A stretch of DNA of 23,063 nt, taken from positions 1 through 23,063 of IMG/VR virus record IMGVR_UViG_3300045970_000678; one strand, written 5' to 3'. This DNA comes from a virus. Below, one piece after another: positions 4,198-19,169 of this stretch. The notes below the pieces were generated by a model. It was not told the DNA's origin. It did not search any database and worked only from the letters and a program-made list of their open reading frames with translations. Position 1 is the first letter of the stretch. Every line of letters begins with the position of its first letter. Both the position numbers and the translations under genes were made by a program.

Positions 4198-6561
4198 TTA
4201 CCCTCCCACCGTCTTGACCGCCACCGCACACGCCGCGTAACCATTGGCCGGCAGCGTCCAGCGCATATCTACCTGACCAGGGGCAGGGGCGGTACTTCCC
4301 GCGCCCTTCCAATTCGCGTCGCTGCTTGCACTCCACCGCTGAGTCTGCCCACTGCCGGCAGCCGCGTTCGCCCCGATGTTCAGGTAAGCAACACCATCGA
4401 TCAGAAGGTCACCAGTGCTGCCAGTCAGAGTCACCACAGCCGGCCCAGCAGCCGCGTAAGCATTGACCAGCGTGCCCAACGGGGTAGTTTGATGCACGTT
4501 CACAAAGTCCACCGCCCCAGCTTCAAAGTAATCATTGCCGCCCAGCGTAACCACGATGTTGGCACTGCCAGCAGCAGGCGCCAGCAGATACCACATGCTG
4601 ATGCGTGGGTACGTAACGCCGATCCCTTGCTGACAGCCGCCTTTGTTCGTCAATGCAACGCCGCCATAAGTCACGCCAGAGCAGCTCGTCCCAGATCCAG
4701 CCCTTTGGCAGACCGTCACCACCAGCAATCTATTATCTCCGGCCGGCACAGTGTGCGCCCAGGTCGCGGTATTCACGTTCGCGCCTGTTGAGGAGCTCGC
4801 GGATCCGCTCACCAGCACGTTCTTTATGGGGGTTTTCTCGAAGGTCAGTTCTACCAGCGCGTCTTGCCCATCGGCACTGATCCATTCTACCTTCTGGCCA
4901 ACGATCAACCACCGCCCATAGATCCCGAAGTTCAGCAGTGCGCTTGCGCCGCCGGCCGCGCCAAAGTCTACGTGTGATCCCAGGTCGTACAGCAGCAGGT
5001 TGGCATACAGCAGGTCTCCGCTCCACTGGTAGGTTATCGTCACAACACTGGCCTGCTCTCTGGTTGCAAGTGCATCGATGTAGCTTTGGCCAACGTTCCG
5101 CGCCATGGTTGAGTCTTGTATCCAGCGTGAGTCTATGACGATTTTCCGTTCTCCATTGAGAACAACACTCGCCGCGTCGCTGATCGCCGCCATACTAAAC
5201 TCTGATCCCGTTTCGATCAGTCCTATAACCTGCACTTCCAGGTCGAAGAAATAAGCCGTCAAGGTCGGGCTGTAGTTTCGCAGCCGCACAGTGCAAAACT
5301 TCTGGTTGTTGCCCAGCTGTACATAGGTTAAGCCGTAACTGTTCTCGCCGATCTGCTGCACAAGCCGGCTGTATTCTCCGGCGCCGGTTCCCGTGCTCGT
5401 GCCCATATCCGTACCGGTCTTATCGGCAGCAGAGTTTACCAGGTGTCTTTTTACTTCCGTGATCGCGTTCGTGTTCACTCTCACCCAATTGCCCTGCATG
5501 GGTTTGCCCAGGCTGACAGGGTATTCGATGTTGATGTCCACGATAGACAGCGGAGGCACTGCCACGGGCCCGCCGTTGCTCCACGCCGTGACATACATCG
5601 CCGTCGTGGCAGGTGATGTAAACGGGTAGACGCTGTGAGGCCTCACCCTTACCAGTGCGTAGTTCCGCAGGCTTTCAAATGGGCTCGTTCTTGCCAGGCC
5701 AGCCGCTTCCTGTGCTCGCGTAGGCGCTGCCAGTGCAAAAGCATACCCGTTCGGGTCCAGTCTATCCATGGCAAACAGACGACCAGTCCGCAAGAAGAAC
5801 AGTCGCGCGCAGAACCCATCCGCCACATCCTTGAGAGTCTCCCATGCGCTGGATCCGTCCAGGTAAAAGTATGCCGGCTGTTCCAGGTTGTAGACCGCAG
5901 AGCCAAACCAGGACCCTAACAGCCAGCCGGCTTTACCCAAGATGATAGTGATAATCTCTTTCAGTGTTAACCCGCCAGGTCTGCCAGACCAGTAATTGAT
6001 GGGGAAGGGGGTGCTGCCAACCACAAAGTAGCTGTCAGCCGCGCCAAGCGAGAAACTCTGGCAGTTCGCGTACAGGCTGGCAGCCGCGCCAACTTCCAAC
6101 AGCATCGAGAGTCCCACGCCGCGCAGGGTGGAGATACCCGTCTTGGCGTCATGTTCCGCTGATAACAGTGTTCCGTAAAACACCGCTTCACCGGCTGCCT
6201 TACTGGTCGTGGAGACGATCATCACGCGCAGCAGCACAGCCGGCGCGCCCATGCTGGCATACACCGGGGAGCTGCTGTTAAAGCTGTCATACCTTGCGGC
6301 AGTGTCCACAATCTGGATCTCGAAGGCCTCAGCGCCTGGCTGCATTTGCCCGCTGCCATCCGCTTGCAGTCTGCGCTTTCTCCCGCGTTCTATCCGAAGC
6401 CTGGTGATGGTCTGAAGCTCCATGTCACCGCCAAACACCTGGTCACGATCCCAATCCACCTGCACAGCAAACATCACCTTACCAGCGACTCCCGCGTAAG
6501 GATGCTCCACCGCCGACCCGTACAAATTCAGCCCATATTTCGCACTTCCGTATTTAGCCAT
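4198..6561 (-). CDS. Phage tail hub / baseplate-like protein
   Basis: The start at 6561 (MAKYGSAKYGLNLYG) is chosen for GGAGAG 7 nt upstream; the open frame extends to 6642 without a ribosome site. The product is 787 residues. Residues about 45-130 (IERGRKRRLQADGSGQMQPG, later VDTAARYDSFNSSSPVYASM) match the beta-rich pattern found near the start of many phage minor tail and baseplate proteins, where a G-R segment is followed by D-xRY-D-N-SSP. The middle part is long and beta-rich. The last ~190 residues, after a Ser/Thr-rich linker (SGSASSSTGANVNTATWAH), look like a jelly-roll or Ig-like surface or receptor-binding domain. It is the last gene of the late operon. Confidence 0.65.
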   Translation of the reverse strand: MAKYGSAKYGLNLYGSAVEHPYAGVAGKVMFAVQVDWDRDQVFGGDMELQTITRLRIERGRKRRLQADGSGQMQPGAEAFEIQIVDTAARYDSFNSSSPVYASMGAPAVLLRVMIVSTTSKAAGEAVFYGTLLSAEHDAKTGISTLRGVGLSMLLEVGAAASLYANCQSFSLGAADSYFVVGSTPFPINYWSGRPGGLTLKEIITIILGKAGWLLGSWFGSAVYNLEQPAYFYLDGSSAWETLKDVADGFCARLFFLRTGRLFAMDRLDPNGYAFALAAPTRAQEAAGLARTSPFESLRNYALVRVRPHSVYPFTSPATTAMYVTAWSNGGPVAVPPLSIVDINIEYPVSLGKPMQGNWVRVNTNAITEVKRHLVNSAADKTGTDMGTSTGTGAGEYSRLVQQIGENSYGLTYVQLGNNQKFCTVRLRNYSPTLTAYFFDLEVQVIGLIETGSEFSMAAISDAASVVLNGERKIVIDSRWIQDSTMARNVGQSYIDALATREQASVVTITYQWSGDLLYANLLLYDLGSHVDFGAAGGASALLNFGIYGRWLIVGQKVEWISADGQDALVELTFEKTPIKNVLVSGSASSSTGANVNTATWAHTVPAGDNRLLVVTVCQRAGSGTSCSGVTYGGVALTNKGGCQQGIGVTYPRISMWYLLAPAAGSANIVVTLGGNDYFEAGAVDFVNVHQTTPLGTLVNAYAAAGPAVVTLTGSTGDLLIDGVAYLNIGANAAAGSGQTQRWSASSDANWKGAGSTAPAPGQVDMRWTLPANGYAACAVAVKTVGG

Positions 6562-6823
6562 AATGCACTCTCCAAGTTCAAGAACAGATCGGCTGGGCGT
6601 GTACACTCCCCAGCCAGAGGCAGAACGCTCGGTCATGCGCAAGTGCGCGCATCACCTCGCATAGGCCAGGTCAAGACCCTGGGGGTGGCCTCCCCCAGAC
6701 CCGCCCGCTGGGGCAGTGCCCCCGTCCCCGTGCCCTGCGGGGCTGTGCGACGCGCAGGGAGTCTTCGTGGTTTCAGGTTTTCCGTAGCGCGTCGCACAAA
6801 CCAAATCTTTTTTTCAGTACAGG
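6562..6823. other. Structured intergenic region between nuclease and tail hub genes
   Basis: No gene is seen. The region holds CTGGGGG-N6-CCCCCAG (6679-6698) and a 12-bp inverted repeat, TGTGCGACGCGC (6744-6755) with GCGCGTCGCACA (6787-6798). On the minus strand these would form stable mRNA hairpins between the nuclease and the tail gene. They may act as a partial terminator or a processing site. Confidence 0.6.
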
Positions 6824-7192
6824 TCACAAATCTGACTTCAGTAGTTCTGACTTCAATAGTTCTGAGTTCAGTAAATCTGAGTTCAGAAGATCAACTACCA
6901 ACTTCACACACTGATCCGGTTCACTCGTCAATTGTCTCGGGGAAAACCGAAACACGCGCCAGCCCAGACTCGCCGCCAGGTTCAATTTCTCACGGTCTTT
7001 GTCACCAGCGTGCCGGCCGCCGCCCGGGGCCCACTGACCGCCGTCTATTTCTATCGCTATTTTAGCTGTAGGATGCGCCCAGTCAAAACGAAACCGCCGA
7101 GACGCACAGAATTTATACTCTGCTTCTGGCAAATCGCGTTCTGGCGCACACATCACCCAGAAATAGAGCCACCAATCTGATTTATCGTTCAT
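6824..7192 (-). CDS. PD-(D/E)XK-type endonuclease (DUF559/Vsr-like) with repeat-derived tail
   Basis: The 122-residue product has the core RFDWAHPTAKIAIEIDGGQW, a gap, then HAGDKDREKLNLAASLGWRVFRF. This resembles small DUF559/Vsr-like nucleases: an Asp in FDWA, an E-I-D strand, a D-x-x-R helix and a final W-R-V-x-R-F strand. Such phage enzymes may resolve branched DNA or trim ends during packaging; the substrate is inferred only. The last ~20 residues are a five-residue repeat (LLNSE/LLKSE) encoded by AATCTGAGTTCAG-type DNA repeats that also occur outside genes at about 1004-1055. The ribosome site is weak (GCGGAC). Confidence 0.65.
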   Translation of the reverse strand: MNDKSDWWLYFWVMCAPERDLPEAEYKFCASRRFRFDWAHPTAKIAIEIDGGQWAPGGGRHAGDKDREKLNLAASLGWRVFRFSPRQLTSEPDQCVKLVVDLLNSDLLNSELLKSELLKSDL

Positions 7193-7213
7193 AAAGTCCG
7201 CTCGATTTGCTCT

Positions 7214-7251
7214 TATCCGCTCTTATCAGGATAATCAAGTAAATCATGGTC
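7214..7251. repeat. Dispersed late-operon repeat (LLDKS family), copy upstream of nuclease gene
   Basis: ATCCGCTCTTATCAGGATAA, then TCAAGTAAATCATGGTC, is a variant of the family whose consensus on the plus strand is TAATCCGCTCTTATCAAGCA followed by AATCA-N2-TAAATCATGGTC. It lies between the zinc-ribbon gene (7294) and the nuclease gene (start 7192). Confidence 0.8.
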
Positions 7252-7293
7252 TTGGTTCGCTTAATCATAGTTAACTGAACCATGAAATTTAGA

Positions 7294-7530
7294 TCAACAC
7301 CGCCTCGCGGCCGAGTCAAAAGCAGTACTTGTTTCTACCGTTGCATGGCCGTCTAGATCCATCCGCAGCACCGCCCCGCAATCCGGGCACGGAATCGGAA
7401 CGCCAGACGAGACCATAATATTCAGCCGTCCACACCGGCAGAAGACCGTATCAACGTACTTCGCTGACGGCGGCCTGTCCTGTTGGATGCGCTTGCCTTT
7501 CCCGCCCTGGGTGGGATGGCGGCTGCTCAT
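7294..7530 (-). CDS. Zinc-ribbon protein (78 aa)
   Basis: GGAGG lies 7 nt before the ATG at 7530, which overlaps the upstream stop as ATGA. The product has a basic N-terminus (HPTQGGKGKR) and one zinc ribbon, CRCG...CPDCG, about residues 31-52. The last ~11 residues (STAFDSAARRC) are encoded by DNA that recurs elsewhere: 7310-7331 matches 12054-12075 with one mismatch, and 7301-7319 matches about 20715-20733. The C-terminus therefore appears to be made of repeat sequence. It is the last member of the coupled cassette 8994 to 7294. Function unknown; nucleic-acid binding is likely. Confidence 0.65.
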   Translation of the reverse strand: MSSRHPTQGGKGKRIQQDRPPSAKYVDTVFCRCGRLNIMVSSGVPIPCPDCGAVLRMDLDGHATVETSTAFDSAARRC

Positions 7531-7814
7531 GAGGACACCTCCAGCGTCTTACCGCAATATATACAGTATTTCCAGTCGTTATCGAACGGCTCGCCGTCAA
7601 TGATGACAAATTCTTCTCCGCACTCCGTTGACCATACTCCATCATCGTCTCCGGGAAATGTCCATTTGCAAGTTACCTTTTTGCCGATGTCAGCAACATG
7701 GTCACGGACATCTTGCTCGATACGTACGCGCATAACCAGTGAGATAACAAACAAAGTTATCAATACAATAATTCCTGCGATTAACACAATCCAAGCAGCA
7801 GTAATATCGCTCAT
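7527..7814 (-). CDS. Single-pass membrane protein with C-terminal zinc-ribbon-like domain
   Basis: The start at 7814 is set by GGAGGTG 5 nt upstream and an ATGA overlap with the preceding stop; a longer frame to 7859 lies inside the upstream gene. The 95-residue product begins MSDITAAWIVLIAGIIVLIT. Residues about 6-28 form one transmembrane helix, followed by a charged linker (RVRIEQDVRDHVADIGKK). A four-cysteine domain follows (CKW..., CGEE..., CIYCG), with WSTECGEEFVI and DGEPFDNDWKYCIYCG. The soluble domain probably faces the cytoplasm. Function unknown. Confidence 0.65.
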   Translation of the reverse strand: MSDITAAWIVLIAGIIVLITLFVISLVMRVRIEQDVRDHVADIGKKVTCKWTFPGDDDGVWSTECGEEFVIIDGEPFDNDWKYCIYCGKTLEVSS

Positions 7815-8494
7815 TCCTTCACCTCCAGCGCTTTTCGCGCTTTCATGCAGCCGTCGCAATCACATTCTGGGAGCGCCTCCCGTTCTATCGGTATCCCGAG
7901 CTGTCTGCGTAAAGACAGTTGGCGTTCCATTTCCATCATTCGCGCAGAACCGTGTGCCGGAAAGTTTTTGTGTAAATTGACGTGATACTCCAGCGCCGCT
8001 CGCAACCGCTCGATTTCTTTCCACTCCGCGTCGACAGCGGTTTTCGCGCCGTCATAAAGCCCGGTTAGCTGCTCATTCTCGGCTACTAGTTCTTTCCACC
8101 TGACCGCGAAGTGTTCGAGACTTCGATTTCCAATTACGCGCAAGAGAAAATCAGCGCGTTCAGTCTCGAGTGCATTTAGCCGTTCCACTTCCTTTATCGC
8201 GTTTATGGCGCGAATTTGAAGCAGATCGTATTCCCGCTTCCACTCGTTAAGCTCGCTCTCAAGTTCGCGCTGGCTTTCGACGGCCATTGTTTCACGCCGC
8301 AATGAGTCAGCGTGTTCGCCCTTCAGCGCGTCTCGCTCGATCTCCAACTGCGCCGCCGTGTCGTGATACTGTTTCGCCCAACGCGCCTCCTTGTCACGAT
8401 CAGTGGTCATCATTGTTAACTCATCTTTCAAACGTTTAATTTCGCCCTCGACCGGTTCTAAAAATCCACGCAACAAGCCATCCTGGTCAATCAT
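7811..8494 (-). CDS. Long coiled-coil protein with C-terminal Cys cluster
   Basis: The start overlaps the upstream stop (ATGA at 8494-8491), and the end overlaps the next start. The 227-residue product is almost wholly a charged coiled coil from about residue 15 to 190 (IKRLKDELTMM, QLEIERDALKGE, SELNEWKREYDLLQI). It ends with ECDCDGCMKARKA, a compact Cys motif that could bind a metal. At 227 residues it is too short and too charged for a tape-measure protein, and it has no membrane segment. Function unknown; a scaffold or bridging role within this coupled cassette is plausible. Confidence 0.65.
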   Translation of the reverse strand: MIDQDGLLRGFLEPVEGEIKRLKDELTMMTTDRDKEARWAKQYHDTAAQLEIERDALKGEHADSLRRETMAVESQRELESELNEWKREYDLLQIRAINAIKEVERLNALETERADFLLRVIGNRSLEHFAVRWKELVAENEQLTGLYDGAKTAVDAEWKEIERLRAALEYHVNLHKNFPAHGSARMMEMERQLSLRRQLGIPIEREALPECDCDGCMKARKALEVKE

Positions 8495-8994
8495 CTCATC
8501 ACCTCGCTGTATTTCATCATCGTCTCCGCTGGCTTACGCGGGTTGTACCCAGGCTGCCGACTCGCCCAGACCAGCGCCGCCATCCGCTGTTCTGGTGTCA
8601 TCTTCGGCACCGAAGACTTGAAAACCGCCCGTTCTTCTCTCCTGTCTGCCGTCCGACGCTTTTCGTAGTTCACGACCAGCCGCCGCTTGCAGGCGTCACA
8701 TTTTCTCTTTCTTGCGTCAATTGCGGCGCCACACTGGCAATATTTGACGACTAAATCATGGTGACTCTTGCGCTCGTCATGCGCTTTTTTGCTATGTCCG
8801 GTTATGTTCTTTTGGTTCCCCTTCCGAGGGGTGAATTCTTCACCACAGCCACACCGGCACAGCCGAAGCTCTCTTTCCCCTGCCTGCCCTGCGCGCCGCT
8901 CTCGCAGCAGCTGCAATTCACGCTTGCGCCCACAGTCCTTACAGCGCGTGGCATACCAAGAAATCACTGCATAACAATCAATACAATGGTTCAT
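8491..8994 (-). CDS. Multi-zinc-finger basic protein
   Basis: AGGAGTCTTT (8998-9007) lies 3 nt before the ATG at 8994, a variant of the GGAGTCTCT leader used by the plus-strand operon. The 167-residue product carries three CxxC-type clusters: MNHCIDCYAV...CKDCG near the N-terminus, CRCGCGEEF (about 46-54), and CQCGAAIDARKRKCDACKRR (about 85-104). It is rich in Arg and Lys, ending in an MTPEQRMAALVWASRQPGY segment. The pattern suggests a zinc-dependent DNA- or RNA-binding protein. It heads a cassette of four overlapping genes (8994 to 7294). The exact family is not recognised. Confidence 0.65.
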   Translation of the reverse strand: MNHCIDCYAVISWYATRCKDCGRKRELQLLRERRAGQAGERELRLCRCGCGEEFTPRKGNQKNITGHSKKAHDERKSHHDLVVKYCQCGAAIDARKRKCDACKRRLVVNYEKRRTADRREERAVFKSSVPKMTPEQRMAALVWASRQPGYNPRKPAETMMKYSEVMR

Positions 8995-8997
8995 CTC

Positions 8998-9006
8998 AAA
9001 GACTCC
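8998..9006 (-). promoter_or_regulatory. Variant GGAGTCTTT ribosome-site leader
   Basis: GGAGTCTTT precedes the ATG at 8994 (spacer GAG). It is the one late-region relative of the GGAGTCTCT leader at 1893, 3604, 3850 and 21310. Confidence 0.6.
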
Positions 9007-9431
9007 TAGGTCACATTATCCTTTTCACTCTTAGTCATTGTCGTTTCTGTAATCGCCTTTTGCGGCATATTCAAAACCTCAGTCAGCGCATCCTGCACAG
9101 CCTGAATTTTCAGGTTTGACCGATTTGCTTCCTTATAGGCTGCGTCGGCTTTATGCCCCACGTTCACGACGGCATTCTGCACGACGCTCAAGGTCTTTTC
9201 GGCTTTACTCGCTACCTTTTCGGCATTTTGCGCGGCAGCGTGCGCCAGGTCGGCCGTCGCTTTAGCCTGCCTCACAACCTCGTGCCTGTCCTCAACATCA
9301 CGACGCCTGTTCTCGGCAGATGACAGCCAGTTAAATATTAATACTGACATTCCAGAAAGGAACAAAAACAGGGGCGACGCTATCGCCACGACTATCGCCA
9401 CTATGAATAGCTGATTTGAAGTCATGTCCAT
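9006..9431 (-). CDS. Membrane-anchored coiled-coil protein, possible lysis/holin-associated
   Basis: Residues about 8-36 form a strongly hydrophobic membrane segment (QLFIVAIVVAIASPLFLFL). A long Ala-rich coiled coil follows (VVRQAKATADLAHAAAQNAEK, then about 90-110). The start is at 9431 or the in-frame ATG at 9425; neither has a good ribosome site, and both sit just after the tail-tube stop (9433), so reinitiation is likely. Phage proteins with one N-terminal helix and a coiled tail may be holin partners, spanins or virion membrane proteins. No lysin gene lies beside it, so the role stays open. Confidence 0.6.
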   Translation of the reverse strand: MDMTSNQLFIVAIVVAIASPLFLFLSGMSVLIFNWLSSAENRRRDVEDRHEVVRQAKATADLAHAAAQNAEKVASKAEKTLSVVQNAVVNVGHKADAAYKEANRSNLKIQAVQDALTEVLNMPQKAITETTMTKSEKDNVT

Positions 9432-9432
9432 G

Positions 9433-9906
9433 TCAGATTACCGTCACTTCGCCGCTCACATCCAGCACGATCTTGCCCAGCAGCAGGTTATTCACCGGCT
9501 GGTTGAACAGCAGCCGCACGAACGCATCAAAAGCCAGCCCGGTACCATCCTTGTACGTCACCTGAAACTTTTCCTTCGTTCTGGCCAGCGCAGCCGCACC
9601 CAGACCGGTACTCATGTCTAAGGTTGGCTCAGACTTCAAGAAATGTACTCGAAAGGTCATGCTGCCGCCGTTCTTGAGCACATTGATCTTTTCCTCCCAC
9701 CCGCCCGAAAGATGGCTCGTCACGTCCTTCAGTTCTCCAGCCAGCTCGATCCCTTCGATGGCCAGCACATGCGCCACCGTGGTAAAGGTCACGTGAGTCG
9801 CCCTGTCGGCCATCTTCAGGTATGTGGTATGAGTCCAGCCCGGAATATCTGTTTGCGCCAGCGCAAGCAAAGCCTGCATGTCCGCTACTTCTGCACTATT
9901 TAGCAT
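9433..9906 (-). CDS. Tail-tube-like protein
   Basis: The 157-residue product contains GELKDVTSHLSGGWEEKI...NGGSMTFRVHFL (about 57-90) and ends with a strand-rich domain (FDAFVRLLFNQPVNNLLLG, VLDVSGEVTV). This is the usual pattern of siphophage major tail-tube proteins. The first ~22 residues (MLNSAEVADMQALLALAQTD) resemble instead the opening of head-closure proteins, so the gene may be a hybrid. A tail fibre gene lies directly upstream, where neck genes would be expected. The call is moderate because no tape-measure gene is present. Confidence 0.55.
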   Translation of the reverse strand: MLNSAEVADMQALLALAQTDIPGWTHTTYLKMADRATHVTFTTVAHVLAIEGIELAGELKDVTSHLSGGWEEKINVLKNGGSMTFRVHFLKSEPTLDMSTGLGAAALARTKEKFQVTYKDGTGLAFDAFVRLLFNQPVNNLLLGKIVLDVSGEVTVI

Positions 9907-9909
9907 ACG

Positions 9910-10689
9910 TCACCACTCATAATTTACATGTGCTTCAACAAAATCGCCATTCGCCCAAGTTATCGGAACTGTAGCAGACATTGTGACACCACCCGTTGAT
10001 CGGAAAGCAAAGGTCGTACCGTTGGCTGCGAGGTTTGCGGCTAGCACATACGGAAATGAGCCAACGCCCGCATCCTGGTAACTGCCTACGCCGGATGTGG
10101 TTCCAGTTGGAGATACAGATTTGTAGTTTGCTCCAACCGGTACTGGTAGGGTTGGCATACCTGTCCACGCAAACGCCGCCGAGCCAACAATAGCGTAATA
10201 ATCCACAAAACACCGTGAGCCAATTATGCAATATCTGCCTACGTGTGTAACACTTGCAGAAAAACCCGTAGGCGCATAATTAAAATGTCCCGGCCAGCCT
10301 ATCGGGTTATCCATGTAGCTGTAGTAATTTGCACTGATAACCGCATTCGTGACCGTGTAATCCGTGTTCGTGATGATCGTCACGGTTGTATTGGGAGCAG
10401 CGTACGCAGCACTCACCACCACGCCATACTTCACGGTCGTTTGTGTCCACTTCAACCGCGTCCCCTTTGTCATAACCCCTGTCACATCCCCAGGTATGAC
10501 AATCTTATTCGCGTCAGGGCCGTTATAAGCCCAGGTCAGGGCGTCCGCTATCCAGCCGCCCTGCCTGAGCTCAGTTTCCACCGCTACAACTTCCTCACGC
10601 ACCGTGTTCATGTCCGCAGCTGGGATGTAATCCCCATCCGCCCGCACCGCCCCAAAACTCTTTACACTTCCCGGAAAACTCGCTGTCAT
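9910..10689 (-). CDS. Tail fibre / receptor-binding protein
   Basis: The 259-residue product opens with TASFPGSVKSFGAVRADGDY and IPAADMNTVREEVVAVETEL. This SFPG...N...V-A-E arrangement is typical of the N-terminal part of phage tail fibres, which trimerise through a short helix. The rest is Gly/Ser/Thr/Ala- and aromatic-rich beta structure (for example YAPTGFSASVTHVGRYCIIG), suiting a receptor-binding tip. The ribosome site is weak (GAGATG). It ends 3 nt before the tail-tube-like gene, an unusual position for a fibre gene. Confidence 0.65.
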   Translation of the reverse strand: MTASFPGSVKSFGAVRADGDYIPAADMNTVREEVVAVETELRQGGWIADALTWAYNGPDANKIVIPGDVTGVMTKGTRLKWTQTTVKYGVVVSAAYAAPNTTVTIITNTDYTVTNAVISANYYSYMDNPIGWPGHFNYAPTGFSASVTHVGRYCIIGSRCFVDYYAIVGSAAFAWTGMPTLPVPVGANYKSVSPTGTTSGVGSYQDAGVGSFPYVLAANLAANGTTFAFRSTGGVTMSATVPITWANGDFVEAHVNYEW

Positions 10690-10704
10690 AATGTCATCTC
10701 ATTT

Positions 10705-10778
10705 TCGATTGTAGATTGAAGATTGTAGATTTTAGATTGAAATCCGCTCTTATCAAGCAAATCACGTAAATCATGGTT
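10705..10778. repeat. GATTGTAGATT simple repeat plus one LLDKS-family repeat
   Basis: Positions 10705-10738 hold degenerate GATTGTAGATT(G/T) copies. Positions 10741-10778 hold AATCCGCTCTTATCAAGCAA, then ATCACGTAAATCATGGTT. The second repeat begins within two bases of the TGA of the connector gene. Both lie between the connector and the tail fibre genes. Confidence 0.8.
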
Positions 10779-11227
10779 CAGACCGTTTGCTCGTCTTCGG
10801 GAATGTACCGGTACGGGTCGTTCACCGGTCTTAGCCTCGTCACGCCAATTTCATAGGTCGGCCAGGTCGGGAAACTAACCCACTCCACAGCCAGCCCATA
10901 GGCGCGATCAAGCGACTCTACCGCATTCTTGTAAACGCTCTCACGCTCAAAAACAGAGCCTGTAGAACTGAATTTGTAGTACGTCACCAGGTCATTACAA
11001 GCCTTTTTCCAGGCTTCTACACGCGCCAACGCCCTAACCTTCGGAATGTCCGTACAAAGCGCAATACTGGCAGCCCCGTATTGAATGATGGCCTCATTTA
11101 CGGCTTCCTGGTAGCTGCCAGCATCCAGCGCGCCCACCGCATACGCCAGCAGAGTCGCAACCTTCCCCAGCTCAGCCGCCATAAAATCAGCAAGTTCGTG
11201 CTCAGTGTAACTGGTGGGTACTGGCAT
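10778..11227 (-). CDS. Head-tail connector / adaptor-like protein
   Basis: GGAG lies 8 nt before the ATG at 11227. The 149-residue product is mainly alpha-helical (EHELADFMAAELGKVATLLA, VRALARVEAWKKACNDLVTY), with a C-terminal Pro-rich beta tail (WPTYEIGVTRLRPVNDPYRY). Size, helical content and position downstream of the capsid suit a gp6/gp15-type adaptor that binds the portal ring. No catalytic motif is present. The assignment rests on context and general pattern. Confidence 0.5.
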   Translation of the reverse strand: MPVPTSYTEHELADFMAAELGKVATLLAYAVGALDAGSYQEAVNEAIIQYGAASIALCTDIPKVRALARVEAWKKACNDLVTYYKFSSTGSVFERESVYKNAVESLDRAYGLAVEWVSFPTWPTYEIGVTRLRPVNDPYRYIPEDEQTV

Positions 11228-11228
11228 G

Positions 11229-11552
11229 TTATTTTCTCCGCTTGGCTTGCGCTAATCCGCTCTTTGGCTGGGCGCTCTTGCCTTGCGCTTGAACTTGAAC
11301 TAATCCACTCTTATCAAGCAAATCAGGTAAATCATGGTCGTTTTTCCGGCCAATTTCCTCAAGCAAGGTCTCAAGCAGATCAGCGATCCCTTCGGTTCTG
11401 CGAAGCGCGGCTATCTCAGGGTCGGCGTGTCGGTTACGTATTTCCTCAGCCGCACGCAAAAACCCATACTTCTCGGTAAGTTCAGTCAAAGCCAGTTCAA
11501 TTCTCTGGTTGGCCATGGCCAACTTATAAACCAATGCCGTGCTATCCATCAT
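11229..11552 (-). CDS. Small helical late protein with in-frame repeat insertion
   Basis: GGAGGTG precedes a GTG and two ATGs (11555, 11552, 11549); the ATG at 11552 or 11549 has the best spacing. Residues 1-70 are helical and charged (LTELTEKYGFLRAAEEIRNR, IADLLETLLEEIGRK). DHDLPDLLDKSGL follows, encoded exactly by a copy of the dispersed repeat (11300-11339), then a Gln/Ala/Lys-rich tail (QAQGKSAQPKSGLAQAKRRK). The repeat therefore sits inside the gene in an open frame. The family is not recognised; size and position suggest a small head or neck protein. Confidence 0.6.
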   Translation of the reverse strand: MMDSTALVYKLAMANQRIELALTELTEKYGFLRAAEEIRNRHADPEIAALRRTEGIADLLETLLEEIGRKNDHDLPDLLDKSGLVQVQAQGKSAQPKSGLAQAKRRK

Positions 11553-11570
11553 CACACCTCCGCTCTTGAA

Positions 11571-11710
11571 CTAATCCGCTCTTATCAAGCAAATCAGGTA
11601 AATCATGGTCAGTTCTTGAACTAATCCGCTCTTATCAAGCAAATCAGGTAAATCATGGTCAGTTCTTGACCTAATCCGCTCTTATCAAGCAAATCAGGTA
11701 AATCATGGTC
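11571..11710. repeat. Three tandem copies of the LLDKS-family repeat
   Basis: Copies at 11571-11610, 11621-11660 and 11671-11710 repeat with a 50-bp period. The sequence TGACCTAATCCGCTCTTATC, then AAGCAAATCAGGTAAATCAT, is nearly invariant. The copy next to the holin-like gene supplies that gene's TGA stop (CGA CCA TGA). Confidence 0.95.
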
Positions 11711-11987
11711 GAACCGTCAGCAGATACGCCGCCTGGTTCGCAATGGCAGCACTGATGAACAGATTGACCAATGCCAGGATGCCGGACTTATCACAGGTAA
11801 CCTGGTTCGAATACCCAATACACGAAAGCCCGTATATTGCCAGCGTGACCAGCAGCAGAGCCCCGAGCATAATCAAGCGCTTGAAATCAGGATTAAGCGC
11901 TTCAAACTTACCTTTCAGACCTGGAACGTAGCTAAACGCCAGTGAAAGAACCACCCCCGCCAAAGTTGCCAAAGTTGTATCATTCAT
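11703..11987 (-). CDS. Holin-like membrane protein
   Basis: AAGGTG lies 5 nt before the ATG at 11987. The 94-residue product has three hydrophobic segments: about 6-22 (LATLAGVVLSLAFSYVPGL), 38-58 (LIMLGALLLVTLAIYGL) and 69-91 (ILALVNLFISAAIANQAAYL). Short charged loops separate them (GKFEALNPDFKR, TCDKSG). Size and three-helix layout suit a phage holin, which would open the membrane for lysis, but no lysin is visible nearby. The TGA stop comes from the adjacent repeat, so the C-terminus (LTVRP) may have been set by its insertion. Confidence 0.55.
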   Translation of the reverse strand: MNDTTLATLAGVVLSLAFSYVPGLKGKFEALNPDFKRLIMLGALLLVTLAIYGLSCIGYSNQVTCDKSGILALVNLFISAAIANQAAYLLTVRP

Positions 11988-12013
11988 TTTTCACCTTTTC
12001 CTTTTTACCGATT

Positions 12014-12041
12014 TGTCATCTCGAACGAAGAGAGAGATCTT
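12014..12041. repeat. Dispersed hairpin element, copy 1
   Basis: TGTCATCTCGAACGAAGAGA, then GAGATCTT, is repeated at 14091-14118 with changes. ATCTC/GAGAT here becomes ATTTC/GAAAT there, so both sides of a 5-bp stem changed together. Confidence 0.75.
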
Positions 12042-12082
12042 AACCGCGCACGCGCCGAATCAAAAGCAGTACTTGAAAACTT

Positions 12083-12110
12083 GGGGTGGTGGTCACGACT
12101 CCACCACCCC
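12083..12110. terminator. Strong 10-bp hairpin between capsid and holin-like genes
   Basis: GGGGTGGTGG (12083-12092) pairs perfectly with CCACCACCCC (12101-12110) around an 8-nt loop. On the minus strand a modest AAGTTTTC follows. It may weaken late transcription after the capsid gene, or protect the capsid mRNA 3' end. The rest of 11988-12209 shows no gene. Confidence 0.6.
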
Positions 12111-12209
12111 TTTAGAAATCGCAAGCCGCTCGGTTACCTTCCCTATAAGAACAGTGCCACTTTGCACAGTTGGCCGATATCATAGACACGACTCGCACTT
12201 ACCTTTGAC

Positions 12210-12300
12210 CTAATCCGCTCTTATCAAGCAAATCATGGTCAGCCCTTTGCCCTAATCCGCTCTTATCAAGCAAATCAAGCAAATCAAGGTCAATCAAGGT
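12210..12300. repeat. LLDKS-family repeats after the capsid gene
   Basis: Two degenerate copies (12210-12240 and 12252-12300) start immediately after the TAA of the capsid gene, reading on the minus strand. The second gains extra AATCAAGC units, showing internal expansion of a short motif. Confidence 0.85.
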
Positions 12301-13361
12301 TATGCCATTGGGCTGGTGTAGTTGGTCGGCACAGCATAAGCCGCGTTCCCGATCCGCTGCACCACAGCGCCGACTCGGTTCCAGGCTCCAAAGCCTGCAT
12401 GCCGTTCCCACTGAGACTCGTAGAACGGATGATTATCCCGCTCAGCCGCTCGCTGGAAGCCCTGCAAGCTGGTTTCCGGGTGTTGGCGCATTGCAAGCGG
12501 GGGCTCGCCCTGAGTGCTGGCCATCACAAAATAACCGGCGGGCATTGCCTTCCATTCGCAGATCCATACCTTGTCTACGTAGCCGATCAAAACACCCGGC
12601 AGTTTCACGCCCAGGCTGCCAACCAGCCGGTTGGCGGTGATGGCGGTCTGAATGTTCGGGTCCATGACGGCAACGTAGTTGGTAAGTGCCTGTGTAGTCG
12701 CTACCAGGCTGGTAGAGATCAAAGCCACGGCATCACCCTGGTTCTCGGGGTGCTCCATCAGTTCGGTGTAATCCGCGCCGTAAGGGTTGGTGGCGTCAGC
12801 GATGGCGGCAGCCTGTGCAACAAAGTGCTGGTCAGTCGCGCCTGCATCCGAGCCGTTGATGATCTGGTACACGTCGGTATCAGCGTTCGCAGGTCCCTTT
12901 ATGACCAGACTTCCGTACTGATCGTCAGTAAACGTCCAGTTCGCGTTACTGAACAGCGCAGCCAGTACATGGTCGCGCATCCAGCGCATATCAGCCGCCA
13001 GTAAAGCGCCAGTAGCGTCATTGGCTTCCTGCACGGTCATCTTTTCGCGGACAATGTGAGTCGTGCCCCAGGCAGCCCCGCCGCTTTGCAGCGGAAAGCT
13101 AACGTCATACTTGCCCACGGTCTTAATCGGGCGGGCACGTCCAAATTCATCCAAGCCCTGCAAGCGGGCAGCGGTCGGGGTGCGGTAGGTCACTTTGAAA
13201 TCAGTCACCGGCTTGACCAGCATACCCAGAAGGGACTCAATTTGCCGGTTATGTTCTGCCACGGTCTGTTGAATCGCAGTGCTAACCAGTCCCACACCAA
13301 TTTCACTGACCCGTTTCGCAGCCAGGTCTTTCAAACTTTCAAATCCATAGAGTAAAGCCAT
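12300..13361 (-). CDS. Major capsid protein (HK97-fold-like)
   Basis: AAGGTAAC stands before the ATG at 13361, after a poly-T/A stretch. The 353-residue product has an N-terminal helical region (LKDLAAKRVSEIGVGLVSTA), an extended-loop-like section (about 55-100, FKVTYRTPTAARLQGLDEFG), a long helical spine (EANDATGALLAADMRWMRDH) and a C-terminal domain with VKLPGVLIGYVDKVWICEW. It lies after scaffold and decoration genes in standard head-module order. Length and context suit an HK97-fold shell protein; no protease gene is seen. Confidence 0.8.
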   Translation of the reverse strand: MALLYGFESLKDLAAKRVSEIGVGLVSTAIQQTVAEHNRQIESLLGMLVKPVTDFKVTYRTPTAARLQGLDEFGRARPIKTVGKYDVSFPLQSGGAAWGTTHIVREKMTVQEANDATGALLAADMRWMRDHVLAALFSNANWTFTDDQYGSLVIKGPANADTDVYQIINGSDAGATDQHFVAQAAAIADATNPYGADYTELMEHPENQGDAVALISTSLVATTQALTNYVAVMDPNIQTAITANRLVGSLGVKLPGVLIGYVDKVWICEWKAMPAGYFVMASTQGEPPLAMRQHPETSLQGFQRAAERDNHPFYESQWERHAGFGAWNRVGAVVQRIGNAAYAVPTNYTSPMA

Positions 13362-13412
13362 TTGTTACCTTCCTTTTTTAGTCGTTCTAACTTTGATCTT
13401 GCCTTTGACCTT

Positions 13413-13645
13413 GACCTAATCCGCTCGATTTGCTAAGCAAATCGTCAAGCAAATCAAGCAAATCATGGTCGCTCTTATCAAGCAAATCAAGCAAATCATG
13501 GTCGCTCTTGACCTAATCCGCTCTTATCAAGCAAATCATGGTCGCTCTTGACCTAATCCGCTCTTATCAAGCAAATCATGTAAATCATGGTCGCTCTTAT
13601 CAAGCAAATCAAGCAAATCATGGTCAATCATGGTCAATCATGGTT
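13413..13645. repeat. Expanded array of LLDKS-family repeats
   Basis: About five degenerate copies fill 13413-13645, between the decoration gene stop and the capsid start. Variation lies in the number of AATCAAGCA and AATCATGGTC subunits. One copy contains the near-palindrome CGATTTGCTAAGCAAATCG (13425-13443), which also appears with one extra base inside the portal gene near 15771. Confidence 0.9.
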
Positions 13646-14057
13646 AAAGATCAATGAACAGCAGTTTGGCCAACGCCCCGCCCAGCAGTTCACTATGGCC
13701 AGGCACAACACGACCAATCACAGTGCTAACAGTCCCGGCAGCATCCGCAATCGTCCCATCAGTGTCAGCCAGGTAAAGCGGAGCATCCCAATCCTGGGTG
13801 ACAGTCCAACCATCCAAGACACCCTTGCGGATGACGGTGATAGGCAGCCCAGCGATCACGATATGAGTCCCAACGGCAATGCCGAGGACACGCGCCTCAG
13901 CGGCATCCGTCGCCTTCGCCTTCGAAATCAGACCGGTAGCGGTATCCAGGCGAACCGGCATCCCGGGGGTAATTTGTTCCGCAGCAACACCAGTAAACTG
14001 GATAAGACTTTCAACAACCTCAACCCGTGCAGCAGTGGCCAATACAATAGCAGCCAT
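13644..14057 (-). CDS. Capsid decoration / head-stabilising protein
   Basis: The 137-residue product starts MAAIVLATAARVEVVES and is mostly beta strands with small residues: ITPGMPVRLDTATGLIS, then ARVLGIAVGTHIVIAGLPIT. This pattern and its place between scaffold and capsid genes suit a gpD-like decoration protein that trimerises on the capsid surface. AAGGATGG lies before the ATG. The stop codon is followed directly by the expanded repeat array. Confidence 0.7.
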   Translation of the reverse strand: MAAIVLATAARVEVVESLIQFTGVAAEQITPGMPVRLDTATGLISKAKATDAAEARVLGIAVGTHIVIAGLPITVIRKGVLDGWTVTQDWDAPLYLADTDGTIADAAGTVSTVIGRVVPGHSELLGGALAKLLFIDL

Positions 14058-14090
14058 TTTTTACCATCCTTTTTTTAGTAGTCGTTCGCT

Positions 14091-14118
14091 TGTCATTTCG
14101 AACGAAGAGAGAAATCTT
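14091..14118. repeat. Dispersed hairpin element, copy 2
   Basis: TGTCATTTCGAACGAAGAGA, then GAAATCTT. The stem ATTTC/GAAAT is a compensated variant of the copy at 12014-12041. It lies between the scaffold and decoration genes, next to the LLDKS repeats. Confidence 0.75.
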
Positions 14119-14140
14119 GAACTTGCTCTTGACCTTGTTC

Positions 14141-14250
14141 TTGACCTAATCCGCTCTTATCAAGCAAATCATGGTCAGCTCTTATCAAGCAAATCAAGCA
14201 AATCATGGTCAGCTCTTCTCAAGCAAATCATGTAAATCAAGGTCATGGTC
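14141..14250. repeat. LLDKS-family repeats after the scaffold gene
   Basis: Three degenerate copies start directly after the TGA of the scaffold gene (TGACCATG on the minus strand). Confidence 0.85.
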
Positions 14251-14791
14251 AGAAGTTCGTGTACAACATCCCCTGTCCTCTGCGCGCTGCTTCGAGGTCT
14301 TCCTCGCTCAGGCTGCGCGCCTTCGACTCGGGGCTCGCGGGAATGCCCGCCGACCTGGTTGACTTGCCAAGCTCTTCCCTGTTGGATGCCAGGTACTCGA
14401 TTTGTTCAATCGGGTCCAGTTTTTCCAGCAAAACAAGCACGTGTTTTGGCAGGTCTTTCTTCTCAGTCACCAAGTATTTCTCAAGTGCGCCCTTGTAGCG
14501 CTCCACCTGTTCGCCTAACGGCTCCAGTTCATCCAGCTTCACTAGCAGCTCATTAGCCCGCTTTTCGTGGTTCTGGGCAACCTGCTGCCACGCCTGGTTC
14601 TCTACCAGGCTTTTGGCCTCAGCTTCTTCCTTCGCCTTGGCCGCTGCCTTCTCGCGGGCTGTCTTCTCCCGCTCCAGTCTATCTTTCACGATCCGATCCA
14701 CGTCAGCCTGGGTGAAAGCCTTCTCACCCTGTGCCAGTTCAGGCACCACCGACTCTGTGACCGTTTCCGCTGCCTTCTGTTCGTCTACCAT
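14249..14791 (-). CDS. Capsid scaffold protein
   Basis: AAGGAG lies 8 nt before the ATG at 14791. The 180-residue product is acidic and helical. Residues about 25-46 contain EKAFTQADVDRIVKDRLERE, a hallmark of phage scaffold proteins of the GP20/DUF4355 type. A long coiled coil follows (REKAAAKAKEEAEAKSLVEN, LDELEPLGEQVERYKGALE), and it ends in a typical C-terminal capsid-binding segment with basic residues. It acts during prohead assembly and is lost from the mature head. Position just before decoration and capsid genes agrees. Confidence 0.85.
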   Translation of the reverse strand: MVDEQKAAETVTESVVPELAQGEKAFTQADVDRIVKDRLEREKTAREKAAAKAKEEAEAKSLVENQAWQQVAQNHEKRANELLVKLDELEPLGEQVERYKGALEKYLVTEKKDLPKHVLVLLEKLDPIEQIEYLASNREELGKSTRSAGIPASPESKARSLSEEDLEAARRGQGMLYTNF

Positions 14792-14840
14792 TTTTTCAGC
14801 TCCTTTGCATCCGGTTTTTCCCGTAACCGTGAACGTCTAA

Positions 14841-15653
14841 TTACCAAAAATCGCTCAATGCCTTTCTTGCTTCCTCGGCTTCCATGATACAGCGACCAAC
14901 AAACTCCGCTTGTTGAGGCGTCACGGCATTCCCGAGTCCTTTAAGTCTGTCCACCCGTCCGGGAAACCCATCAACCACTCGACCCACGTTGGGTTCAACT
15001 TCCCATCCACTACCGCATTCAAATTTGGTGAAAACCCGCGTTCCCGGGACGGGCTGCCGTTGCATTTTGAGTCGTTCACCGTCGGCGTCGGATACATCAT
15101 CACGTAACCCGATAAATTCGGATGCTTCCCGCTCTTGTTGGTCTGAAATTTCCAGCGTTCGTTCGTCGTTGCGGTAGGCAATAATAAAGACCCTCTCGCG
15201 GATATGCGGCGCACCAAACGCGGCAGCCGGTACACTCTGCCATTCGACACTATACCCGCCTGCGGCCAGCTCTGCGAGTATTCGACCAAAGAACCGTCCA
15301 GCCTCACTAGACAATATTCCCGGTACATTCTCACCCAGGAACCATAAGGGTTTAATTTCGCCAATAATACGGGCAGTTTCGCCCCATAGGTCGCGCTCGT
15401 CTGCGCTGCCTTTCCGGCTTCCGGCAAGACTGTGGGGCTGACAGGGGAATCCGCCACAAATAAGGTCTGCTGCAGGGAGGTTATGTTTTCCAACATCATG
15501 CACGTCCTTGAATTTTGGCACGTCCGGCCAATGTTTTTTGAGAACCTTCTGGCAGTAGTTATCTTTTTCGACCTGTGCGACACATTCCATGCCGGCGCGT
15601 TCAAGCCCCAGGTCAAGACCACCAATGCCAGAGTAGAGCGAAATAAATTTCAC
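14841..15653 (-). CDS. C5 cytosine DNA methyltransferase (orphan)
   Basis: The GTG start at 15653 overlaps the portal stop (GTGA). The 270-residue product has motif I (SLYSGIGGLDLGLERAG, near residue 5), the catalytic PCQ (GGFPCQPHSLAG, about 68-79), ENV (GENVPGILS), motif VIII (QSVPAAAFGAPHIRERVF) and motif X (LKGLGNAVTPQQAEFVG). The target-recognition region is short. It methylates cytosine in a specific short site that cannot be read from sequence. No restriction partner is present, so the likely use is protecting phage DNA from host restriction. Its insertion between portal and scaffold is a mosaic feature. Confidence 0.9.
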   Translation of the reverse strand: MKFISLYSGIGGLDLGLERAGMECVAQVEKDNYCQKVLKKHWPDVPKFKDVHDVGKHNLPAADLICGGFPCQPHSLAGSRKGSADERDLWGETARIIGEIKPLWFLGENVPGILSSEAGRFFGRILAELAAGGYSVEWQSVPAAAFGAPHIRERVFIIAYRNDERTLEISDQQEREASEFIGLRDDVSDADGERLKMQRQPVPGTRVFTKFECGSGWEVEPNVGRVVDGFPGRVDRLKGLGNAVTPQQAEFVGRCIMEAEEARKALSDFW

Positions 15654-17227
15654 GACAGCCCCGCCTTGCCAATACTTTGCTTCGCCGCCGGCGCTTGCGG
15701 CTCGCCCGCGTTCCGCTCGCCGCTGCTGGCAGCCTGGCTCCCGGCCGGCGATGTCCCGACTTGCTCTTGCCCGATTTGCTTAGCAAATCGTCCGCTCTTA
15801 TCAAGCAAATCACGTAAATCATGGTTCCGATCCCGCTCCATCCGCTCCAACTCCGTTTCCGTCCAACCTCTGCGCCTGGCTGAGGTCACCAGCGGCACGC
15901 CGGCAGATACTTCCATGCTGATCGTCTCCGCTTGCTCCTGCTGGCTGAAGGGAATGACTTCCCGCTCAGCAAAGAGGTGCTCAAAGTCGCCGTGCTCAAA
16001 GTTCCCGATGTCTTTCCACAGCCCAGCCACAGCCCCGATGGTCAGCGCCATCATGTCGGCGCGGATCAGCGCCTGCTCAATGTTGGACCGTGCTTCGATG
16101 GTTCTGTCCACCGCTTGCGAGAGCAGCAGGCGGACAGCCCGCCCGCTGATGCTGCTTCCCAATTCCTTCTGCCGGTAGTACGAAAGCTCCGGCAGGTCTT
16201 CCTCAAGCTCCCGCATCTGTGCGTTCAGAATGTCCAAGTGAGCCTGATAGTTCAGGTTGGCTACCAAGTACTCCATCTTCGAGGTGCCCGGAAAGCTCTT
16301 CACGTCGTCGTCGTGTTCTTCCGCGACTCCCGCTTGCTGGTTGGCCAGCTTTGGCGGCGGCAGCGGCCGGCCGGACGGGTCGTTGCCGTTGGCCATGATC
16401 GCCACGGTGGGGCGGTTGTACCTGAAGATGATCTGATGCAGGCGAGTCGCCATCCGGTTGGCCTCGTCGATCTTGTCCAGCGCCAGGGTGAAGACGCCGA
16501 TGCCGCGTTTCTCGCCCATGTCGATAAAACTCGCGTGGACAAATGGCACGAAGTCGATCCCGAAGGTGGATAAAGAGAGAGAGAGGGAGGGGGGGCCTAA
16601 TTGCTTGACGGGGGAGCCGGCCAAGAGAGTCGATGAGTTGGCGTAGACTCTCAAGCCAAAATCCTTCGACCATATTTCCGTATGGTTTTTCCCGTTGCCG
16701 TTGATGTCAGTTGTCGGGATGTCGAGTCGAATAAACGTGATGTTGCCGCGCTCGTCCGTCTCAAAATCTGTCACCACCTCCGGCTTAATGTTCTGAAGAT
16801 AGACACCCGTCACCTTGCCATCCGAGTCCTGCCGTGTGCACACCTTACAAAACCAGTCACCATACAGCGCGAACCAGCGGGCTGCCAACTGCTTCTTCAC
16901 GCCCCAGTTAGACCACGCCCACACCTTGTGCAGTGGTGTGATGATGCGTTGATTGGCGGTGACGACTGGCAGCGCCTTGTCGATTGAGCCAGGCCAAATG
17001 TGAGTCACGTGAAACTCAACGGTACGTTTGGCAGGGTTGCGTAAAGCCTTCATGCCCGCCGTCCAAATCCCGTTCTCGTACAGCATCTGCTGAGTCGCAT
17101 CGTACAGCCCGTTGTTGAAGTAATACGCCTCCAACATCCGGTAGAAGTCCAACGCCGGCGCATCCGGAGCCTGCAATCCGCTCATCAGCATCGCCCTTGC
17201 CCACTGCATTTGTGGTGTCGTGTTCAT
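15650..17227 (-). CDS. Portal protein with repeat-derived C-terminus
   Basis: The start at 17227 (MNTTPQMQW) is preferred because its ATG overlaps the terminase stop (ATGA) and GGAG lies 9 nt upstream; the ATG at 17242 is the alternative. The 525-residue product has helical N-terminal and stem regions (KLANQQAGVAEEHDDDVKSF, ILNAQMRELEEDLPELSYYR, SYYRQKELGSSISGRA) typical of dodecameric portals. Near residue 470 it carries NHDLRDLLDKSGRFAKQIG, encoded by a copy of the dispersed repeat (15771-15827), then a Ala/Gly/Ser/Gln-rich tail. A (AG)n-G7 tract at 16574-16595 encodes PPSLSLSLS. It forms the packaging channel at one capsid vertex. Confidence 0.8.
   Translation of the reverse strand: MNTTPQMQWARAMLMSGLQAPDAPALDFYRMLEAYYFNNGLYDATQQMLYENGIWTAGMKALRNPAKRTVEFHVTHIWPGSIDKALPVVTANQRIITPLHKVWAWSNWGVKKQLAARWFALYGDWFCKVCTRQDSDGKVTGVYLQNIKPEVVTDFETDERGNITFIRLDIPTTDINGNGKNHTEIWSKDFGLRVYANSSTLLAGSPVKQLGPPSLSLSLSTFGIDFVPFVHASFIDMGEKRGIGVFTLALDKIDEANRMATRLHQIIFRYNRPTVAIMANGNDPSGRPLPPPKLANQQAGVAEEHDDDVKSFPGTSKMEYLVANLNYQAHLDILNAQMRELEEDLPELSYYRQKELGSSISGRAVRLLLSQAVDRTIEARSNIEQALIRADMMALTIGAVAGLWKDIGNFEHGDFEHLFAEREVIPFSQQEQAETISMEVSAGVPLVTSARRRGWTETELERMERDRNHDLRDLLDKSGRFAKQIGQEQVGTSPAGSQAASSGERNAGEPQAPAAKQSIGKAGLS
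15771..15827. repeat. LLDKS-family repeat inside the portal gene
   Basis: CGATTTGCTTAGCAAATCG is followed by TCCGCTCTTATCAAGCAAAT and CACGTAAATCATGGTT, all in an open frame of the portal gene. Translation of the minus strand gives NHDLRDLLDKSGRFAKQIG. Confidence 0.9.
16574..16595. repeat. AG dinucleotide and G7 tract in the portal gene
   Basis: (AG)6 at 16574-16585, then GG-A and seven G at 16589-16595. On the minus strand it encodes a Pro-Pro-(Ser-Leu)n run. Slippage here would shift the portal frame. Confidence 0.8.
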
Positions 17228-18723
17228 CGTGTGTTGCTCCATGTTCTAGCCTGCCAGCCTTCAGCCAGCAGGTGCTCAAGAAATAGTATTGCCTGTGCCA
17301 TAGAGTCGACGGTATCCTTCACCCGTCCAGCCGGGAACTTGTACAACTGGTCTTCAAAGTCCAGCAGCCACGGCACAGACTCAGACGGTTCCGGCAGCAG
17401 TATGCAGCCGCGCTCACACCACAAACTCGCCTGCCTCGCTCGTCCTTCCTTCGAGACCTGCCCAGGCTGGAAGGGAATGAGGAGTTCTGCGATGTTGCGT
17501 GGAGCGGATTGGTCTAATGTCTGCAAGGCAGAGATACCGCTGACCTTATCCTCAACGATGATCCCGCGCAGCTTGCCATCATACATCCAACGCCGCGCCT
17601 CGTCCTGAATCGCACTTGCCAACTGGGGGAACTGCAAGCGCTGCCAGCTAGCAAACCGCAGCCGCAAGCGGTAATCGTCGAGCAATTCCCAGACTGTGAG
17701 GGCTGATGTATCCGCCTGCTCCCGATCCTTGAGGGCAGTATCCCAGCTCATCCAGCGACCCACCACCACACCCTCACGCGCAGAGTACCGGTTCCTACCA
17801 CCTTCCCACCAGGTAACTTGATAAATATTCCCGCCGGCCGGCGCAGGCCGCTGCCCGTGCTGCCCAGCGTATCCACGGAGGCCAAGGTCAGCGTGTGCTG
17901 CAGCGTTTTCTTTCTCCCCGAACCGCTCAGGCCAGAGCAACTCACCGCTGACCTTGCGTGGATCTCCGAGACCAAGCCCCGAGAAATACCGATTCGGTTC
18001 GTATTCGGTTGGCAAGCACAAGTGCTCGTATTGATGCGCGCCGTCTATCTTCATCTTGTCCAGGAGATGACCAGTCAAATCGTTCTCGTGCAGCCGCTGC
18101 ATGATAATCACGCGCCTGACCGTCTTCGGGTCATTGCCTCGCGTGGATACAGTCGAGTCGTAAATGTCGTTGATGCGCTCACGGATGATGTCGCTATCCG
18201 CGTCCTGTGCTTTCAGCGGGTCGTCTACGACAATAATATCGCCGCCCTCGCCAGTGATCGAGCCACCCAGACCAAAGGCCAGACGGTAACCTGTGCGGTC
18301 GTTCTCGTAGCGACTCTTCATGTTCTGATCACCGGTCATCTGAAATACATCTCCGAAACGCTGTTGATACCAGTCTGATTGAATTATGCGCCGGCTTTTC
18401 AGCGCATCCCGCACCGCGAGCGGATCGGCATAAGAACCGGTCAGCCAGCGAACCTCTGGACTGTGAGTCCATGTCCAGGTTGGCCAGAAGACCGAAACTA
18501 ACAAGCTCTTCATGTGCCTGGGTGGGATATTGATAATAAGGTTCTGGATCTGGCCAGCAGTAACCGCGCTCAGGTACTCGCAGATCATGCCAATGTGCCA
18601 GTTATCTACGTATTGCGTCTCAGGCTCCACAACCTGCCAAGCCTTTTTGACGTAATAATAAAAATCCTTGCGGCAGTGCTCAGCCTGAACGGCTGCCAGT
18701 GGTTGGAGTCTGATATTTTTCAA
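17224..18723 (-). CDS. terL: Terminase large subunit
   Basis: The TTG start at 18723 is chosen for GGAGG 6 nt upstream; another TTG at 18744 has no ribosome site. The product is 499 residues. Walker A is INIPPRHMKS (about 65-74), Walker B is GDIIVVDDP (about 161-169). The RNase H-like nuclease domain has SWDTALKD (Asp near 328), IIVEDKVSG (near 391) and DTVDSMAQA (near 475). It is the ATP-driven packaging motor that cuts concatemeric DNA and docks on the portal. It overlaps the small terminase by 44 bp and the portal by 4 bp, so the order is small, large, portal. Confidence 0.95.
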   Translation of the reverse strand: MKNIRLQPLAAVQAEHCRKDFYYYVKKAWQVVEPETQYVDNWHIGMICEYLSAVTAGQIQNLIINIPPRHMKSLLVSVFWPTWTWTHSPEVRWLTGSYADPLAVRDALKSRRIIQSDWYQQRFGDVFQMTGDQNMKSRYENDRTGYRLAFGLGGSITGEGGDIIVVDDPLKAQDADSDIIRERINDIYDSTVSTRGNDPKTVRRVIIMQRLHENDLTGHLLDKMKIDGAHQYEHLCLPTEYEPNRYFSGLGLGDPRKVSGELLWPERFGEKENAAAHADLGLRGYAGQHGQRPAPAGGNIYQVTWWEGGRNRYSAREGVVVGRWMSWDTALKDREQADTSALTVWELLDDYRLRLRFASWQRLQFPQLASAIQDEARRWMYDGKLRGIIVEDKVSGISALQTLDQSAPRNIAELLIPFQPGQVSKEGRARQASLWCERGCILLPEPSESVPWLLDFEDQLYKFPAGRVKDTVDSMAQAILFLEHLLAEGWQARTWSNTR

Positions 18724-19126: not shown

Positions 19127-19138
19127 CTCATCCTTATT

Positions 19139-19157
19139 GATAATGATTATCATTTTC
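19139..19157. promoter_or_regulatory. Fur-box-like palindrome upstream of terS
   Basis: GATAATGATTATCATTTTC matches the classical Fur box GATAATGATAATCATTATC at 17 of 19 positions and contains AATGAT-T-ATCATT (6-1-6). It lies 12 nt before the terS ATG at 19126. It may be a regulator site or simply an AT-rich coincidence. Confidence 0.4.
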
Positions 19158-19169
19158 AATATACATCTT

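Follow-up and report, generated by a model that had tools for sequence, protein, structure and literature searches.

A late gene module with a tail tube and hub-like protein but no recognised tape-measure gene, conserved in a small Anaerolineae-associated clade

We examined a 23,063-base viral stretch, the whole of IMG/VR record IMGVR_UViG_3300045970_000678, classed as linear and called the window below. Its late genes all lie on the minus strand in a single locus, running from the small terminase subunit (TerS) to a tail hub-like protein. The locus encodes a siphovirus-type tail tube, a fibre and the hub-like protein, and no tape-measure protein (TMP), tail chaperone, terminator, neck-completion or lysin family was matched among the window proteins scanned. 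The missing TMP and joining genes are a conserved trait of a small clade and no recent accident. At a probability of about 0.42, we read the window as an integrase-bearing, prophage-derived element of an Anaerolineae-associated clade that has stably lost its joining and length genes, and whose missing tail parts would, by analogy with its relatives, be supplied in trans.

The identity of the tail tube (9433..9906, minus strand) is well anchored. The gene matches the PHROG major tail protein family phrog_158 (E 1.9e-7), and a profile built from five relatives matches six PDB sequences at E<0.001, all of them tail tubes of the lambda gpV type, which bears out the assignment made in an earlier note on this DNA. 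The window therefore has the gpV-type tube of a siphovirus tail module, and lacks the tape measure, chaperone and terminator that belong to the same module. To our knowledge, a tape measure is regarded as indispensable in tails with gpV-type tubes. An N-terminal extension of ~17 residues is common to the tubes of the window and of a sister locus, L002, and is missing from all five further distinct tubes identified, of which four are full and one partial. Structures of the tube and hub were also predicted, and both models were too poor to use (pLDDT 58 and 38), so that sequence profiles took their place; a PDB fold search with the tube model returned nothing at E<0.001 and was set aside as uninformative.

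The putative hub, or tail-tip protein (4198..6561, minus strand), is 58%, 51% and 45% identical to its homologues in loci L014, L002 and L015. Its start was corrected by alignment to the ATG at 6561; the mechanical open reading frame (ORF) extends to 6642. In L014 and L015 the homologues lie directly 3′ of a PHROG-recognised TMP, and it is this homology and gene order that make the protein hub-like. Its sequence profile matched nothing relevant, and a profile search of genome contigs found no relative. The fibre (9910..10689, minus strand) has a conserved N-terminus and is otherwise variable. The same N-terminus begins the genes that follow the hub in L002, L014 and L015, and the L002 gene matches tail-fibre/collar families. 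In those three loci the fibre comes after the hub; only in the window does it lie upstream of the tube, so that the placement between connector and tube described earlier is correct and peculiar to this element.

Between tube and hub, at the site that chaperones and TMP occupy in relatives, the window carries six small minus-strand ORFs (6824..9431): a transmembrane/coil protein, a zinc-finger-like protein, a coiled coil, a transmembrane protein, a zinc-like protein and a DUF559 nuclease. None matches a TMP or chaperone family. With the hub excepted, the largest late-strand ORF downstream of the major capsid protein (MCP) has at most 259 aa. Consequently, the earlier observation that TMP, chaperone pair and lysin are missing is upheld by both family scans and ORF lengths, and its companion, that tube, fibre and hub are present, stands with the hub named by homology and order, not structure. 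We considered the 227-aa coiled coil at 7811-8494 as a small TMP and rejected it, as it has no counterpart in L002. Similar direct repeats with a 15-nt period lie upstream of the hub (6831-6886) and near the left end (1009-1045).

Relatives with complete tails show the usual plan. The siphovirus prophages and viruses L004, L014, L015 and L019, related to the window by MCP, tube or hub, have homologous late genes in the general order of the window; they differ in having a TMP and, where examined, chaperone and terminator or neck genes. L014, whose tube is 42% identical to that of the window and whose hub and fibre are also homologous, has the order terminator, chaperone, 601-aa TMP, hub, fibre, and L015 and L004 follow the same plan. 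We mapped 48 MCP-bearing loci, among which near-duplicates are apparent from the gene maps (L004-L006, L007-L008, L009-L011). Twenty-four continue for 7 kb or more beyond the MCP, and in 22 of them this downstream stretch contains an ORF of at least 400 aa. PHROG TMP families were matched by 11 of 13 TMP candidates (counting L014 and L015, which were found via the hub); L020 and L028 have long ORFs at the TMP site with no TMP family match at 1e-10. The remaining two of the 24, L025 and L076, possible further TMP-less relatives, have no ORF of at least 400 aa in the 7.8 and 8.1 kb past their MCPs.

The sister locus L002 shares the loss. Its order is scaffold, decoration, MCP, connector, two small genes, tube, a 91-aa gene, hub and fibre, and the 91-aa gene, the sole same-strand ORF of at least 60 aa between tube and hub, is too small for a TMP. 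The window and L002 are 69% identical in the MCP, 61% in the tube and 51% in the hub. The MCP tree unites them with a host contig, L043, in one clade (support 100/99), whose neighbor L019 has a 768-aa TMP, and the tube tree again groups window and L002 (100/99). The hub tree does not separate the branching order of window, L002, L014 and L015, and by identity the hub of L014 is closer to that of the window than the L002 hub is, so that the hub gene may have been exchanged. The genes for tube, hub, connector and MCP are intact in window and L002 alike and differ mostly at third codon positions: the third- versus second-position differences are 0.56/0.25 for the tube, 0.63/0.34 for the hub and 0.58/0.17 for the MCP. 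This third-position excess indicates that tube, hub and MCP are still under constraint, which disfavours the earlier suggestion of a defective element in the sense of decay.

A family of 16 repeat copies, called D1, spans 7200..15826 of the window and is mostly intergenic. The earlier note took repeats at 7.2 and 10.7 kb as the bounds of the tail block, and offered, as one of its possibilities, deletion or shuffling of the region by recombination between repeats. These are 2 of the 16 copies, only 65% identical to each other, and the family recurs in most of the gaps separating genes over 7.2 to 15.8 kb, so that the two copies do not mark the block off in particular. L002, which clusters with the window in both the MCP and the tube tree and is likewise TMP-less in its gene order, holds no D1 copy; a recent repeat-mediated deletion is therefore not supported, and we rejected D1 recombination as the cause of the loss. 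A separate GTCATYTCGAACGAAG-type repeat has two copies between late genes (12013-12041 and 14090-14118) and is absent from the other loci compared.

We now turn to bacterial genomes, where the nearest relatives of the window's terminase and head genes lie apart as intact units among host genes. The host contig L043, from the uncultured Anaerolineae assembly G001, was the only genome-contig match in the first MCP profile scan; when the search was widened to 396 genomes of the class, 12 had MCP matches, and most of those besides G001 proved to be prophages in which a long ORF lies past the MCP. In G001 a portal-scaffold-decoration-MCP unit, 66-75% identical to the window (71-74% for the portal), is located after DinB-like and PAS/GGDEF host genes. 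The unit has no terminase close by, and immediately past the MCP the contig breaks off in a tandem repeat. Two terS-terL pairs (terL encoding the large terminase subunit, TerL) are found on other contigs of G001, adjoining histidine kinase and ABC-2 transporter genes. TerL matches occur in 9 of the 152 genomes of this assembly's family, and exceed 60% identity in two, G001 and G452. In G452 three host loci carry, respectively, terL alone, a terS-terL pair and portal-scaffold, the last after the DinB-like host gene that also precedes the portal in G001 (61% identical). That gene is matched in 23 of the 152 family genomes, and in one of them, G455, no homologue of window genes was detected alongside it. 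The separate TerL copies are intact, with the ATPase and first two nuclease motifs kept; the third nuclease pattern was not matched by our search expression in the window, the isolated G452 TerL or L004. As a separate observation, 24-nt tandem repeats stand directly past the MCP in L002 (1953-2023) and in G001 contig L047 (1-119).

The dispersed units share upstream sequences. In G001 a 19-nt sequence lies 89 nt before the portal and 80 nt before one terS, with four tandem variants before the other terS. The pattern was first read from all three sites, and the test was repeated with one site only as query: a 32-nt query taken from a single terS unit matches the 36-kb portal contig best at a site 89 nt ahead of the portal (24/32, the next being 19/32). 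The two terS units are paralogous, so that their sharing alone means little; the portal unit is not a paralogue. In G452 the 36.5 kb examined contain an exact 20-mer at two places only, ~184 nt before terS and ~191 nt before the portal; among 20,000 random draws of 300-nt pairs from the same two contigs, 3 had a 15-mer in common. The sequences differ between G001 and G452. Their placement suggests operators; a mobile or recombination element could also account for it. The direct repeats at 6831-6886 and 1009-1045 of the window resemble, in their 15-nt period, the iterated sequence preceding terS in G001. Neither operator sequence had a match in viral contigs, nor had the D1 repeat or the end repeat.

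The remaining late genes of the window, all on the minus strand, provide head and packaging functions. TerS (18680..19159) matches phrog_4102 (E 1e-18), and TerL (17224..18744) matches phrog_38 (E 1.2e-82) and has ATPase and nuclease motifs. The portal (15650..17242; phrog_533, E 2.7e-4) includes a D1 copy in its C-terminus. It is followed by a cytosine-C5 DNA methylase (14841..15653; PF00145, E 2e-55), in whose region two overlapping frames are open; the second of these, the ORF at 14921-15625, looks like the C-terminal part typical of phage cytosine methylases, and the gene may be frameshifted or dual-coded. Next come a scaffold-like protein (14249..14791; phrog_2303, E 0.0017), kept between portal and MCP among relatives, and a decoration-like protein (13644..14057), conserved in relatives, adjoining the MCP upstream and named by position. 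The MCP (12300..13361) matches phrog_3990 (E 4e-25), and its profile matches PDB capsid proteins (E 7e-16). Beyond it lie a small membrane protein (11703..11987), holin-like by composition only and with no convincing match in family scans, and the head-tail adaptor-like protein, or connector (10778..11227), which gave no match in profile searches and is named from its post-MCP position and conservation in relatives.

Outside the late locus, a tyrosine integrase (21497..22315, plus strand) matches PF00589 (E 2.7e-26), and no replication gene was recognised in family scans of the window proteins. Plus-strand small genes of unassigned function (1756-4063), among which a ribosome-binding-site-like sequence is repeated, converge on the hub. 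A tandem array with an 86-nt unit occupies 1..288, and its sequence recurs at 22914-23063: the first 82 nt of the window are identical to its last 82, and the last 127 nt match positions 42-168 exactly. The length of 127 bases is a k value of short-read assembly graphs, and such a re-entry would be the expected assembly output for an array that either flanks the element or joins its ends into a circle. Either way, the connector-to-hub region is internal to the element.

Why, then, would a tail module persist without its length genes? In the reading that we prefer, neck completion, terminator, chaperones and TMP have been lost and head, packaging, adaptor, tube, hub and fibre retained; the clade's particles would be assembled from gene sets at more than one site, the missing tail parts being supplied either by a further locus of that host or by a co-resident siphovirus. 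Completion in trans is favoured because L002 shares the loss and because host relatives hold packaging and head genes apart, apparently under common control. Several points weigh against it. The window itself holds packaging, head and part of the tail, with an integrase, in one locus, so that supply in trans would be an analogy drawn from relatives; a borrower of a foreign tail is not expected to retain its own tube and hub; no equivalent shared operator was identified in the window, and the isolated terL of G452 (C160) lacks the 20-mer. Searches of G001 detected neither tube nor hub, and those of G452 no hub, although an empty search result shows nothing, and a detached TMP unit did not turn up, no search for one having been made.

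By their genes, the scattered units of G001 and G452 look like a multi-locus gene transfer agent (GTA)-like system. GTA genes are often spread over multiple loci, five in RcGTA, and caudoviricete origin is a listed criterion for GTAs (PMC9662315). Here that origin is indicated by terminase, portal and MCP homology. As in RcGTA and other GTA viriforms, virion genes of these relatives lie at several host loci with host-type flanks, and the portal follows the same host gene in two species. Vertical inheritance with the host may be involved, but the pattern is seen in two genomes only, and in G455 that host gene stands without a portal homologue. The window differs in having an integrase and one late locus, and is therefore not classed as a GTA. 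It is possible, if doubtful, that window, L002 and scattered units form one host-domesticated multi-locus GTA-like system in Chloroflexota, with packaging, head and tail-length genes at separate chromosomal sites under a species-specific common operator.

The main rival, next in probability after completion in trans, is a complete, very short, TMP-free tail made of adaptor, one or a few tube rings, hub and fibre, in which the N-terminal extension would cap or plug the tube in place of TMP and terminator. Exactly the joining and length genes are absent, a coherent minimal set survives in two diverged members with tube and hub under constraint, and the extension is shared by the two TMP-less tubes. 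Against this, no solved relative of such a tail was found, the predicted structures are too poor to test it, and the scattered genes of G001 and G452 are left unexplained. Podoviruses offer a precedent for a short tail without a TMP, but the window's tube is of the siphovirus gpV type, and no podovirus-type nozzle was matched in family scans of the window, whose predicted structures were unusable for this purpose. The earlier note's very short or divergent tail, like dependence on parts from elsewhere, keeps the support of the absent genes; its repeat-deletion part is not supported. A satellite phage with its own head and DNA packaging, drawing tail parts and replication from a helper, seems to us unlikely: integrase, terminase, portal and MCP, with no recognised replication gene, do recall the Streptomyces satellite MulchRoom and capsid-forming phage-inducible chromosomal islands, as described in PMC10690885. 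The window has the capsid, portal, terminase and (by position only) connector of a capsid-forming satellite, but these known satellites are without recognisable tail genes; the window keeps tube, hub and fibre, and no helper was identified. We rate a degenerating prophage, its tail genes lost by chance or repeat recombination and no particle made, as more improbable again; the many intergenic direct repeats and the relocated fibre would suit it, and the same loss in L002 without D1 repeats, together with the intact and constrained late genes, would not. Least probable is an incomplete record or assembly artefact with the TMP block outside the contig. The record is classed linear and both its ends fall within a repeat array, but the gap falls inside the contig, between connector, tube and hub, and the independent contig L002 has it too, and the last 127 nt re-enter the array of the opposite end as a flanking or closing array would make them do.

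Our literature search found no paper titled on a Chloroflexota GTA, which is not proof that none is in print. A lineage in which tube and hub are conserved without a TMP would point either to tube termination that needs no TMP or to particles assembled from scattered gene sets. If the scattered-set reading is true, it would represent a new origin of GTA-like particles in an abundant, poorly cultured bacterial class.

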